This document shows, piece after piece, positions 10,717-15,618 of a stretch of 64,000 bases of DNA. Under the pieces are notes generated by a model that was given only the letters and a program-made list of their open reading frames with translations, was not told the DNA's origin and did not search any database. The translations under genes and the position numbers were made by a program. The stretch is from Akkermansia sp. (GTDB lineage: Bacteria > Verrucomicrobiota > Verrucomicrobiia > Verrucomicrobiales > Akkermansiaceae), in assembly GCA_017555025.1 (NCBI GenBank), contig JAFZHC010000020.1, positions 1 through 64,000 on the forward strand. The letters are read 5' to 3'. Position 1 is the first letter of the stretch; each line of letters starts with the position of its first letter.

Positions 10717-13077
10717 ATGAAGAAACGTACTCTCCTCATAGCAGCCATACTGGCCATACCTTCGCTCGTGTGGGGCTCTGCCGAACAGGCAGCCACCGCC
10801 GCGCCTGCTGTCGTTGCGGCAGTAACGGGCCAGTCCGAGGCCGCGGGCAATTCCGTGGTCACTACCTCTGCCGAAGCAGAGGTGACTACTACTGACGCAG
10901 AGGTACCCGCCGTGGGCACCATTGCCGTGAAAGATCTGGTGGGTAAAAAACTGGGTGTGCCCCAAGGGACCGTGCAGGACATTTACCTGATGGAGACGTA
11001 CCCGCAGCTCGAGCTGCAGCGCCATAACTTCGAGGCCGATATGATGCTGGCTCTCGAAAAGGGCATTTGCGATGCCGCCATCATGGATGACGTCATCTGT
11101 TACGCACTCGCTCGCAAAAAGCCCAACATCCTTTTGTTCGAAGACCCCAGCCTACCCAAAAACTTCATGGGCATGGCTTTCAACCATACTGACAAAGGGC
11201 GCGAGCTCTGCAAGCAGTTCAACGAGTTCCTCTCCGCCCTGCGTGAGAGCGGTGAGCTGGAGCAAATCTGCAACAAGTGGATTGTGAACACTGAAACGGC
11301 TGAAATGCCCAAGTTCAATATCCCCACCGAAGGCGAGCCCATCATCGTTGGTATGGAGCCTTGCACCGAGCCCATTGTTTTCATGCGTGGTGAGGAGATT
11401 GTGGGTATGGATGCCGAACTCATTTACCGCTTTGCCGAGAAAATCGGGCGTCCGGTTGAAATTAAGAACATCGACTACTATGGTCTGCTGACCGCTGTGG
11501 CCGCCGGTCAGGTTGATATCGCCTCCTCCGGTTTCCTCATTACGGCAGAGCGTGCTGACAGCGTACTCTTCTCCGACCCGTACTACACCAGTCGCTCCAT
11601 CATTGCCACCCGCAACGAGGGTGCTGCTCCCGGCACAGATGAATCTGTACCCCAGCTGGGCACCATTGCCGTGAAAGATCTGGTGGGTAAAAAACTGGGT
11701 GTGCCCCAAGGGACCGTGCAGGATATTTACCTGATGGAGACGTACCCGCAGCTCGAGCTGCAGCGCCATAACTTCGAGGCCGATATGATGCTGGCTCTCG
11801 AAAAGGGCATTTGCGATGCCGCCATCATGGATGACGTCATCTGCTACGCACTCGCTCGCAAAAAGCCCAACATCCTTTTGTTCGAAGACCCCAGCCTGCC
11901 CAAAAACTTCATGGGCATGGCTTTCAACCATACCGACAAAGGGCGCGAGCTCTGCAAGCAGTTCAACGAGTTCCTCTCCGCCCTGCGTGAGAGCGGTGAG
12001 CTGGAGCAAATCTGCGACAAGTGGATTGTGAACACAGAGTCGGCTGAAATGCCCAAGTTCAATATCCCCACCGAGGGCGAGCCTATCATCGTTGGTATGG
12101 AGCCTTGCACCGAGCCCATTGTCTTCATGCGTGGTGAGGAGATTGTGGGTATGGACGCCGAACTCATTTACCGCTTTGCCGAGAAAATCGGGCGTCCTGT
12201 TGAAATTAAGAACATCGACTACTATGGTCTGCTGACCGCTGTGGCCGCCGGTCAGGTTGATATCGCCTCCTCGGGCTTCCTCATTACGGCAGAGCGTGCT
12301 GACAGCGTGCTCTTCTCCGACCCGTACTACACCAGCATTTCCGTAATCGCCACCCGCAAGGACAGCGATATCACCAAAGAACCCTCAGCCGTTACCAAAG
12401 CAGCTCAGGGCATTATCGGCGGCATTACCGACAGCTTCTACCGCAACATCATTGCCGAGAAGCGTTACCTGCTTATCTGGGATGGTCTGAAGGCCACTTT
12501 TGCCATCGCTTTCTTCTCCACCCTCTTCGGCACCCTCGTCGGTGCAGCCGTCTGCTACCTGCGCATGAGTCGCAGCAAGTTCTGGCAGTGGGTAGCTCGC
12601 GTGTACATTGACATTATGCGCGGCACTCCCATCCTGATTCTGCTCATGCTCATGTATTATGTAGCCTTTGCCGGCACGCAGGTGGAGGCGCTGTATGTGG
12701 CCATCATCACCTTCAGTCTGAACTTCGGTGCTTACGTCAGCGAGATGTTCCGCAGCTCCATCACCAGTATTGATAAGGGTCAGAGCGAAGCCGGCATAGC
12801 CATGGGCTTCTCCCCCTTCCATTCCTTCTACTACATCGTGTTGCCGCAGGCCATCAAGCGCGTACTGCCTGTGTTCAAGGGTGAGGTTATCTCGCTTATT
12901 AAGAACACCTCCGTGGTGGGTTACATCGCTATTGCCGACCTCACTAAGATGACGGATATCATTCGAGCCCGTACATTCGATCCCTTCTTCCCCCTGTTGA
13001 TGGTAGCCATCCTCTACTTCCTCATTGCCTGGTTGTTTACCTTCACTCTGGATCGCCTCAGCCGTAACGTCAAATAA
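10717..13077 (+). CDS. Amino-acid ABC importer: duplicated substrate-binding lobes fused to the permease
   Basis: 786 residues. A signal/anchor segment (1-20) and an Ala/Thr/Glu linker come first. Then two in-frame copies of a 248-residue unit start at residues 67 and 315. Within each unit the order is lobe 2 of a family 3 solute-binding protein (GKKLGVPQGT to the closing KW), then lobe 1 (IIVGMEP, GMDAELIYRFAEKIGR, SSGFLITAERADSVLFSDPYYTS). Lobe 1 of copy 1 and lobe 2 of copy 2 therefore make one normally ordered receptor, flanked by spare lobes. Residues 560-786 form a polar amino-acid permease (HisM/GlnP type) with the ATPase-docking EAA loop EAGIAMGFSPFHSFYY. Substrate is probably a polar amino acid. 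It forms an operon with the ATPase 21 bases downstream. Confidence 0.9.
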   Translation: MKKRTLLIAAILAIPSLVWGSAEQAATAAPAVVAAVTGQSEAAGNSVVTTSAEAEVTTTDAEVPAVGTIAVKDLVGKKLGVPQGTVQDIYLMETYPQLELQRHNFEADMMLALEKGICDAAIMDDVICYALARKKPNILLFEDPSLPKNFMGMAFNHTDKGRELCKQFNEFLSALRESGELEQICNKWIVNTETAEMPKFNIPTEGEPIIVGMEPCTEPIVFMRGEEIVGMDAELIYRFAEKIGRPVEIKNIDYYGLLTAVAAGQVDIASSGFLITAERADSVLFSDPYYTSRSIIATRNEGAAPGTDESVPQLGTIAVKDLVGKKLGVPQGTVQDIYLMETYPQLELQRHNFEADMMLALEKGICDAAIMDDVICYALARKKPNILLFEDPSLPKNFMGMAFNHTDKGRELCKQFNEFLSALRESGELEQICDKWIVNTESAEMPKFNIPTEGEPIIVGMEPCTEPIVFMRGEEIVGMDAELIYRFAEKIGRPVEIKNIDYYGLLTAVAAGQVDIASSGFLITAERADSVLFSDPYYTSISVIATRKDSDITKEPSAVTKAAQGIIGGITDSFYRNIIAEKRYLLIWDGLKATFAIAFFSTLFGTLVGAAVCYLRMSRSKFWQWVARVYIDIMRGTPILILLMLMYYVAFAGTQVEALYVAIITFSLNFGAYVSEMFRSSITSIDKGQSEAGIAMGFSPFHSFYYIVLPQAIKRVLPVFKGEVISLIKNTSVVGYIAIADLTKMTDIIRARTFDPFFPLLMVAILYFLIAWLFTFTLDRLSRNVK
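10915..12402 (+). repeat. In-frame 744-base tandem duplication inside the importer gene
   Basis: The unit starting at 10915 recurs at 11659. About a dozen or so differences, mostly third-base, are visible across the first 690 bases, so identity is roughly 98 percent. Divergence rises in the last 40 or so bases. The low divergence implies recent duplication or ongoing conversion. Confidence 0.92.
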
Positions 13078-13098: not shown

Positions 13099-14205
13099 AT
13101 GATTCAGATCCGCAATCTCAAGAAAACTTTCGGTAACCTGACCGTGCTGCATGATGTCAACATCGACATCAAACGCGGCGAAGTCATCTCCGTTATCGGG
13201 CCGTCCGGCACCGGCAAGAGCACATTCCTGCGCTGCCTCAACCTGCTGGAGGAACCGACCAGCGGCAGCATAGTGGTGGATGGCGAGGAGCTCCTCTCTG
13301 ATGAGAAGGTCAACGTACCCAAGCTGCGCCGCAAAATGGGTATGGTCTTCCAATCCTTCAACCTGTTCGACCACATGAGTGTGCTCGAGAATGTTTGCAT
13401 TGGCCCCATCAAATTGCTGGGCAAGAGCAAAATCGAAGCCGCCCAGAGAGGCCTCAAGTTACTTAAGATGGTGGGCATGAAGGAGAAAGCCCGTTCTATG
13501 CCCTCGGAGCTTTCCGGTGGTCAGAAGCAGCGTGCAGCCATCGCCCGCTGTCTCTCCATGAACCCGGAAATCATCCTCTTTGATGAGCCAACCTCCGCGC
13601 TCGACCCCACCATGGTGAGTGAAGTGCTCTCCGTTATCCGCGCTCTTGCCAAGCAGGGCATGACCATGGTTATCGTCACCCACGAAATGTCTTTCGCCCG
13701 CAATGTGAGCACCCGTGTGCTGTACATGGATCAGGGCGTCATTTACGAACAGGGTACCCCTGAGGAGATTTTCGATAACCCGCAGCGTGAGCGCACCCGC
13801 GTATTCGTCAACCGCATCCGCGACTTCCATTATGTCGTACAGAGTGAGGACTTCGATATTTATGCCCTCGAGGCGGAGTTTCAGCAGTTCTGCAACAAAT
13901 ACTTCCTCTCTGAACAGACTGTTCAGCACGCTATGACTCTGGCAGAAGAAATGCTGCAGCATATCCCCCTGGGCCATGGCGATGTACACCTCTACTATCG
14001 TTACTCCGAAAAGAACGGTACGCTCGACATGGAAATCCTCATGCCCACCTCTACCGGTCCGGTTCTCGAAAAAATGCCTGCGGAAGTCAAGGCCAAGATT
14101 TACTCCTTCTGCACCTGCGTGGAGGAGTACGAAGACGTAGACATCCGCGACGGTGTGCACGTCAATCGCATTTGTCTGGAGCTGAACAGCGCTCAGACAT
14201 TATAA
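13099..14205 (+). CDS. Polar amino-acid ABC importer ATPase with C-terminal extension
   Basis: 368 residues. The first 243 are a standard GlnQ/HisP-type ATPase: Walker A GPSGTGKS at 34-41, the Q-loop after VFQSFNLF, signature LSGGQKQR near 138, Walker B with D-loop [12 protein letters not shown] near 159, and the switch histidine in VIVTHEMSF. It powers the permease encoded immediately upstream. Family members are usually about 240-250 residues. The extra 125 residues (from [14 protein letters not shown]) form a predicted alpha/beta region with a helix, [11 protein letters not shown], and a strand, [17 protein letters not shown]. This vaguely recalls GHKL ATPase-type folds, and I cannot assign it. 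A strong terminator follows. Confidence 0.92.
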
Positions 14206-14567: not shown

Positions 14568-14592
14568 AGTGCCAACTATTCCCGTCTCCTCT

Positions 14593-15618
14593 ATGCTACG
14601 ATTCATCAAAGCATCCATCCTGCTCTTGCTTTTCATCCCTTTATCCTTGGGGAATGAACAGCAAGATACAGAACTCAACTTCAACGAAAGCTGGAGTAAT
14701 GAAGAACGAGCAGCCCTCACCGAATTCCACCGTTACCTCCTGCATGATTTTTGTAACGATATGTGGAAGCGACACCTCGAAACACAGGAAGCGTTCCACA
14801 GACATGCACCGGAGTACGGTATGGTCATAAGCCATCTAATCAGTCTCAGCCCCGATGCATTCCGCAGCAGAATTCATCAGGAGATAGCTCCGGTACTCCG
14901 TCAACTTGTAACTACAGCGACCAACGGCACCGTCGACGAACCGACCGACTCGACAATTCGCGCGACGATATTAGCTGCACAGACAGGTTATCTGGCGGCA
15001 GTACAGGCTCTCGTTGCTCATGGGGCAGACGTGAATGGAAGCCGGGAAAGCGACGACATTCACGCCACCCCCTTTACAGAATTGCTCAGCGGTTGCTGTA
15101 TCAATAATCGTAAACTTCCATGGAGCGAGCGTAAAGCCACCGTTGAATTCCTGCACAGTCAGGGTGCTGAGCTTAACTCCGAGGGAGAAGCCGTGCTCAT
15201 TGCGCTTCAACTCTCCCTGATAGTCGGGCACGAAACCGAGCCTTGGCACTGGGCGCTCGACCATGGACGACAAGTTACCCCCGTCTGCCTGGATACCATG
15301 CTCACCACCCCCAACGGCTATAGCCTGGCAGAACGAGTACTCCGAGAGAATCGGGTAGATGTGAACGCCGACAACGGATTCCGCACACCCCTGCAAGCGC
15401 TGATAGAAGCTACCGCAAGTTGTGAGGATGCCGAGGAACTGGAAGAGCTGCAAGCCGAGCGCAAACTCGAACTTCTCCTCTCAGCAGGGGCAAAGCCCGA
15501 TTCCCAAAACACCCTCACCTTGCGTCGCTACTTAAAAAACGCCGAACTCCCAGCAGATGCAACTGAAATACTCGACCGCATGTTAAACAAACTCCAATCC
15601 ACAACCTACCATGACTGA
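14593..15618 (+). CDS. Secreted ankyrin-type protein, tandem paralog 1
   Basis: 341 residues with a signal peptide (MLRFIKASILLLLFIPLSLG). After it comes a conserved start shared with the next two genes, NESWSNEERAALTEF. The middle has ankyrin-like helices: AAQTGYLAAVQALVAHGADVNG at about 136-157, FLHSQGAELN, then ALDHGRQV and LLLSAGAKPD. Ankyrin repeats bind proteins. I see no enzymatic motif, and the partner is unknown. An earlier GTG in the same frame is less likely because it lies against the promoter. The stop overlaps the next gene by eight bases, so the three paralogs form one operon. Confidence 0.75.
   Translation: MLRFIKASILLLLFIPLSLGNEQQDTELNFNESWSNEERAALTEFHRYLLHDFCNDMWKRHLETQEAFHRHAPEYGMVISHLISLSPDAFRSRIHQEIAPVLRQLVTTATNGTVDEPTDSTIRATILAAQTGYLAAVQALVAHGADVNGSRESDDIHATPFTELLSGCCINNRKLPWSERKATVEFLHSQGAELNSEGEAVLIALQLSLIVGHETEPWHWALDHGRQVTPVCLDTMLTTPNGYSLAERVLRENRVDVNADNGFRTPLQALIEATASCEDAEELEELQAERKLELLLSAGAKPDSQNTLTLRRYLKNAELPADATEILDRMLNKLQSTTYHD

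Follow-up and report, generated by a model that had tools for sequence, protein, structure and literature searches.

Probable circular permutation of family 3 substrate-binding proteins in receptor-permease fusions of Akkermansia and other Verrucomicrobiota

Introduction

To our knowledge, natural circular permutation among the receptors of ABC importers is limited to a few cases (OpuAC and TpMglB-2). The first of these, OpuAC of Bacillus subtilis (2b4l), is a circular permutant of ProX (PMC2395249), and the second, TpMglB-2 (Tp0684) of Treponema pallidum, is a naturally permuted ABC receptor assigned to ‘Type Ic / Cluster Bc’ (PMC4990184). Tandem fusion of receptors to a permease is known from GlnPQ of Lactococcus and Enterococcus, in which the receptor domains SBD1 and SBD2, differing in specificity, are fused in tandem to the GlnP permease (PMC8025302). 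Both features are already known, each from separate systems. Apparently new is the combination described here, a family 3 receptor that is permuted, occurs in arrays of one to four and is accompanied by an ATPase with an RsbW-like tail. In the literature searched, neither fusions of HATPase_c_2 with ABC proteins nor, in Verrucomicrobiota, permuted family 3 receptors were found, an absence that is weak evidence, and no NCBIfam or Pfam family was found for arrays of one to four permuted family 3 receptors together with an RsbW-like ATPase tail.

The stretch of DNA analysed here (the window) comprises 64,000 nucleotides of contig JAFZHC010000020.1 from Akkermansia sp. (GCA_017555025.1), a draft genome of 70 contigs that is probably a metagenome-assembled genome (MAG). 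An earlier note, made from the DNA letters of the window, had described a fusion of a solute-binding receptor to a HisM/GlnP-type permease, with the receptor lobes in reversed order and repeated by an in-frame duplication of 744 bases.

The Fusion Gene and Its Closest Described Counterparts

The fusion gene (10717..13077, forward strand as for all features below) was delimited by its open reading frame and by a lobe-profile scan and encodes 786 amino acids in the order signal peptide, lobe 2, lobe 1, lobe 2, lobe 1, permease. The signal peptide (about residues 1-21; 10717..10779) was recognised from the sequence and corresponds to a helix at residues 2-24 in the structure model; it is followed, up to about 10905, by a linker rich in Ala, Thr and Glu, a region in which residues 15-62 were modelled with low confidence. 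A repeat search and a comparison of the copies placed the direct repeat at 10903..11592 and 11647..12336, with a start-to-start spacing of 744 bases and a unit length of 248 residues, and over a 675-nt core the copies agreed at 96.6% of bases and 98.2% of residues. Unit 1 consists of a family 3 lobe 2 (10930..11283, 197 bits) and lobe 1 (11329..11607, 161 bits), and unit 2 of the same two lobes (11674..12027, 197 bits; 12073..12351, 160 bits); with 160-197 bits per lobe, chance matches are excluded. The permease domain (12445..13074) is of the HisM/GlnP (PAAT) type according to BPD_transp_1 (72.1 bits, cut-off 26.4) and TIGR01726, the HEQRo_perm_3TM signature (77.6 bits, cut-off 42.2), and is 36-44% identical to the permeases of normal-order fusions in the genus. 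The duplication and the permease fusion of the earlier note are thereby confirmed, and so is the reversed lobe order, by the scan and by the swapped profile matches given below. A frameshift or a truncated start was considered as the cause of the odd order and ruled out, because the six-frame lobe-profile scan of the whole window returned exactly two lobe-2 and two lobe-1 domains, with no lobe 1 hidden upstream of the fusion gene.

As in GlnPQ-type proteins, in which a PAAT permease is preceded in one chain by at least two complete receptor domains, two family 3 receptors stand in tandem before the permease, and the two systems are sequence relatives (6h30). The domains of GlnP, however, have the native lobe order (an Enterococcus faecalis record, L117, taken as normal-order control, was read as lobe 1, lobe 2, lobe 1, lobe 2, transmembrane region by the same lobe profiles), whereas those of the window protein are permuted and the membrane-proximal one ends in lobe 1. 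Furthermore, SBD1 and SBD2 are differentiated, whereas the window units are 98% identical. Normal-order fusions of lobe 1, lobe 2 and permease also occur in the genus, for example G000:C16 (515 aa) in the window's own genome; its permease is 39% identical to that of the window protein, but it has a single receptor in native order, and the ATPases of normal-order systems are without a C-terminal extension.

Evidence for Circular Permutation

The SBP_bac_3 profile (PF00497, cut-off 26.4) scored 185 bits against the whole window protein and 92 bits, in two stretches, against unit 2 alone. Both lobes of the window units match this profile of the family 3 solute-binding proteins (cluster F-IV), whereas the chain order of that family (lobe 1, lobe 2, return to lobe 1) is rotated in them. 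Positions 125-250 of NCBIfam TIGR01096, a model of 250 positions, fall on residues 7-126 of unit 2, while positions 25-116 of the GlnH model and 1-94 of SBP_bac_3 fall on unit residues 144-235 and 146-239, respectively. With the N-terminal halves of the latter two models falling on the C-terminal part of the unit, the lobes are cleanly swapped. This was also apparent when the units were rotated at a cut at about residue 135 and scored with a profile built from normal-order receptors: as found they reached 69-80 bits in the best single stretch, and put into native order 133-161 bits over the full profile, so that the score of a unit doubles on rotation (69 to 133 bits). This cut was common to the units of the window, to a one-unit ortholog and to a freestanding protein.

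An AlphaFold model of one unit alone had a mean pLDDT of 93 and a pTM of 0.88, the alignments behind this and the two-unit model being shallow (23-28 sequences from one genus, 28 units for the one-unit model). The best whole-chain match of the one-unit model in VIA-align was OpuAC (Z 12.8, 207 residues, 4.4 Å), and the model has the circularly permuted type II topology of that receptor. With ArgBP of T. maritima, which is 28-29% identical, the lobes matched in two pieces and in swapped order (model 4-85 on chain 108-186, model 97-232 on chain 2-98). Unit 2 of the two-unit model (320-557) likewise superposed on OpuAC (Z 13.0, 212 residues, 4.4 Å), whereas Foldseek matches of that model to the GlnP SBDs, ArgBP and other normal family 3 receptors had an rmsd of 13-22 Å. 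From the rotation and the models, pairing of the lobes within each unit is predicted. The full-length model (pTM 0.38) was weak beyond the receptor units, both for the permease and for the placement as a whole, and not usable for the arrangement of domains.

We consider it very probable (roughly 0.92) that each 248-residue unit is a complete, circularly permuted SBP_bac_3 receptor whose lobes pair within the unit. About 15 residues connect the last helix of the receptor, its old C-terminus, to the old N-terminus, while the chain is opened in the loop behind the first hinge strand, which puts its new ends at the beginning of lobe 2. The unit is predicted to share with OpuAC the permuted type II fold, but OpuAC is a glycine-betaine receptor with 12% sequence identity whose Pfam family is not among the Pfam matches of the window protein, while the window-type units have a family 3 sequence. 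TpMglB-2 is comparable as a natural circular permutant and as a membrane-tethered lipoprotein, but has the Type I (sugar) fold of another branch of the superfamily and no tandem permease fusion. In a tree of the concatenated lobes a branch with 91/88 support separated all permuted units from the normal ones, and a single origin of the permuted units is possible.

Relatives Within Akkermansia

The scan of named genomes yielded 30 loci, all in Akkermansia or Akkermansiaceae MAGs and, as far as titles tell, mostly from ruminant and deer gut. Two units precede the permease in 11 of these and one unit in 18, and the remaining locus is cut by a contig end. The two-unit MAGs stem from several projects, and unit number is consistent by clade. 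The permease tree has two clades with two units, that of the window (8 rows, support 97) and a further one (support 99), each of which adjoins a different one-unit clade; both two independent duplications and one old duplication plus losses fit this tree.

Copies within one two-unit gene were 82-100% identical in DNA, and the window units were 78-87% identical to units of related species of the same clade. Because the identity within genes is mostly higher than that between species, and because 16 of the 20 codons that differ between the window units (675-nt core) are silently changed, the sequences indicate that the units are homogenised by gene conversion and held under purifying selection. 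The recent duplication or conversion suggested in the earlier note is borne out to this extent. In L037 none of the 675 bases compared differs between the two units, as a result either of gene conversion in the very recent past or of the assembly.

Distribution Across Verrucomicrobiota and Beyond

A search of 388 genomes with a one-unit protein as query returned matches of lobe 2, lobe 1 and permease in about 30 genomes of several families, and permuted-receptor systems span many lineages of Verrucomicrobiota. The loci in the phylum, nearly all of them in MAGs, were read with the lobe profiles and comprise freestanding lobe 2-lobe 1 proteins (L099, L092, L091) and permeases that carry one unit (L075, L076, L085), two units (L073, L074, L081-L083, L086, L089), three units (L077-L079, L088, L093-L098, L100) or four units (L080, 1282 aa). 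In these arrays of one to four units the lobes occur in lobe 2-lobe 1 pairs without exception. Unlike in the window, units of arrays elsewhere are only 21-43% identical, in this respect resembling the differentiated SBD1 and SBD2 of GlnPQ. In the operon of L099 the receptor is a lipoprotein with a lipobox, whose chain stops where the lobe-1 hinge strand ends; a separate permease and then an ATPase follow. A 272-aa open reading frame in L087 was not counted as a freestanding unit, as neighbouring frames hold the remainder of a two-unit gene; L087 is probably such a gene with a frameshift between its units, either a pseudogene or an assembly error.

The receptor gene SELR_RS16275 on plasmid pSRC1 of Selenomonas ruminantium (L113) also has lobe 2 before lobe 1, an order that was read from low-scoring profile matches (20 and 8 bits) and from inspection by eye. 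Pfam places SBP_bac_3 in two stretches of this protein, its annotation says only ‘transporter substrate-binding domain-containing protein’, and it is accompanied by a separate permease and a tailed ATPase. Since L113 belongs to Bacillota, the permuted architecture crosses phyla. Plasmid matches in Aeromonas, Ochrobactrum and Agrobacterium, contiguous in tblastn, proved to be normal-order receptors, and a viral origin was not supported, the viral contigs being without relatives.

L091 combines a freestanding permuted receptor with an ATPase without tail. In both lobes and permease it comes nearest to the systems of normal order, its permease falling in the normal clade of the permease tree, and it is either an independent second permutation or a basal lineage.

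The permutation seems to characterise an entire family of amino-acid receptors within a single phylum, in which a natural series leads from freestanding receptors to one, two, three and four units on a permease. Such a series makes testable how a permuted tether affects the docking of receptor and permease, and how and why receptor arrays grow. Because profiles give only fragmentary matches to permuted receptors, and their annotation goes no further than ‘substrate-binding’, they are easily misread.

Alternative Explanations

In the reading of the earlier note, lobe 1 of unit 1 and lobe 2 of unit 2, the central pair, make up a normal receptor, which the outer lobes either embrace as a second receptor or, being degenerate, leave on its own. 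The central lobes do stand in native order, and profiles align with them contiguously (Pfam 209-437; PDB phmmer). Such nesting is nevertheless highly improbable: one-unit and freestanding relatives have no central pair, nor any other lobes in cis, and complete arrays of three and four units begin in lobe 2 and finish in lobe 1. The linkers from lobe 1 to lobe 2 between permuted units are variable (16-64 residues; 15-41 from lobe 2 to lobe 1 within units), compared with a native hinge spacing in normal receptors that is almost always 11-13 residues, rarely 17 or 25. Structure prediction of the receptor region, which the note had named as a check, gave a two-unit model whose unit 2 matches permuted OpuAC, with normal receptors fitting only at the large deviations given above. 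Since a single unit by itself gives a complete predicted fold, an embrace by the outer lobes is not upheld, and neither is their degeneracy, given that ligand residues are kept in both units and silent changes dominate. A swap in trans, in which lobes pair across the two chains of the permease dimer and a receptor is made of two chains, would be compatible with our monomer models, which are silent on quaternary structure; moreover, importers with one HisM/GlnP-like permease gene are expected to be homodimers. Against it stand the compact and complete prediction for a single unit (pTM 0.88), a linker of at least 15 residues between the old termini, which permits pairing in cis, and the existence of freestanding lipoprotein forms, and we regard it as very unlikely. 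Pairing within each unit is retained as the preferred reading.

The repeat itself might have been produced by the assembler, through duplication of one unit or collapse of a longer array. The window genome is a draft, the copies are 97% identical over about 690 bases, which is more than short reads span, and the copies of the L037 MAG are the same at 675/675 bases. Two units are, however, present in 11 other MAGs from separate assemblies, consistently by clade, and in most of these the copies differ by 4-18% in DNA, so that an artefact has very little probability. The comparison of copy number among orthologs, another check proposed in the earlier note, accordingly gave a consistent picture (two units in 11 Akkermansia MAGs, one in 18) that rejects an assembly artefact as the origin of the duplication, while a higher copy number in the window genome is possible.

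Ligand Residues and Putative Function

Both window units carry the Thr and Arg of the lobe-1 motif (SGFLITAER) as well as the lobe-2 motif's Asp, and thus have the residues of amino-acid receptors of the SBP_bac_3 family. By comparison with GlnBP-like receptors we take the Arg and Thr of lobe 1 and the Asp of lobe 2 to contact the ligand. Most permuted units share these residues; of 104 such units 86 retain the lobe-1 Arg, and the 18 that deviate come from a single lineage. Since these residues are kept in both window units, both should bind an amino-acid-like ligand, a class suggested by sequence motifs.

Each permuted receptor would close on its ligand via the Arg and Thr of lobe 1 and the Asp of lobe 2, the loaded receptor would presumably pass the ligand to the permease, and the ATPase at 13099-14205 would power import. 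Because gene conversion keeps the two window units nearly identical, they would most likely raise the local receptor concentration for one substrate, and a role in dose or docking rate is suggested. The diverged units of relatives would probably widen the substrate range, by analogy with GlnPQ.

ATPase Tail and Partner-Switching Genes

The ABC ATPase of the same operon (13099..14205, forward strand; 368 aa; ABC_tran 125 bits) continues for about 128 residues beyond the ABC core, and this C-terminal extension was located at 13819..14202 (forward strand) with an HMM of relatives. A tail of 117-137 residues was found on the ATPase in 49 of the 50 permuted loci with a complete ATPase (Selenomonas among them; the exception is L091), loci that are related and do not represent 49 independent events, the Selenomonas case being from another phylum. 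The tail was noted in the window and in the series L033-L060, L073-L099 and L113. Complete ATPases of normal-order controls had 1-4 residues beyond the core in 12 of 12 cases. An HMM built from the tails of relatives scored 53 bits in the window and 67 bits in Selenomonas, and the tails are thus homologous. PF13581 (HATPase_c_2) was matched by 3 of 11 diverse tails (best 4e-8); the window's own tail has no match to PF13581 and is linked to the family through the HMM of relatives. As judged from this homology to such a domain in relatives, the tail would be a degenerate RsbW-like (HATPase_c_2) domain.

In G166, G206 and G170 the ATPase gene is followed at its 3' side by genes for a STAS protein, an RsbW-like protein and a membrane protein with a SpoIIE phosphatase, assignments supported by Pfam for STAS and HATPase_c_2 in G166, for STAS in G170 and for SpoIIE in all three, and otherwise by sequence likeness. 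Other permuted loci retain one or two of these genes, and the gene after the ATPase in the window operon is unrelated to this module. We hypothesise that import may be regulated by partner switching. Tentatively, and with a good deal more doubt than attaches to the permutation, the loci could be seen as a distinct class of ABC importer with permuted receptors, freestanding or one to four per permease, and an ATPase with a degenerate RsbW-like domain. On that domain a STAS protein, set by the operon's putative RsbW-like kinase and SpoIIE phosphatase sensor, might dock and thereby gate transport or report receptor occupancy. The close association of an RsbW-like domain with the ATPase suggests a regulatory connection, not recognised so far, between the uptake of nutrients and signalling by partner switching.

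At the level of single loci, the partner-switching genes (STAS, RsbW-like and SpoIIE phosphatase) lie directly 3' of the importer ATPase in L118, L119, L120 and L125, and STAS only in L121 and L122. The three-unit lineage L093-L098 has no conserved lobe-1 Arg in any unit and no adjacent ATPase, and is possibly a non-transporting sensor; matches to the tail were found for this lineage in open reading frames of 377-447 aa on other contigs. In one of these, L126, an ABC ATPase, the Walker A motif looks lost, and L127 belongs to the same observation. Downstream in the window, the protein encoded at 14569-15618 has a recurring N-terminal HESW.EEERAALTE-like motif and apparent ankyrin-type repeats, and relatives of it stand in tandem in a sister genome (L033, 7926-10247).
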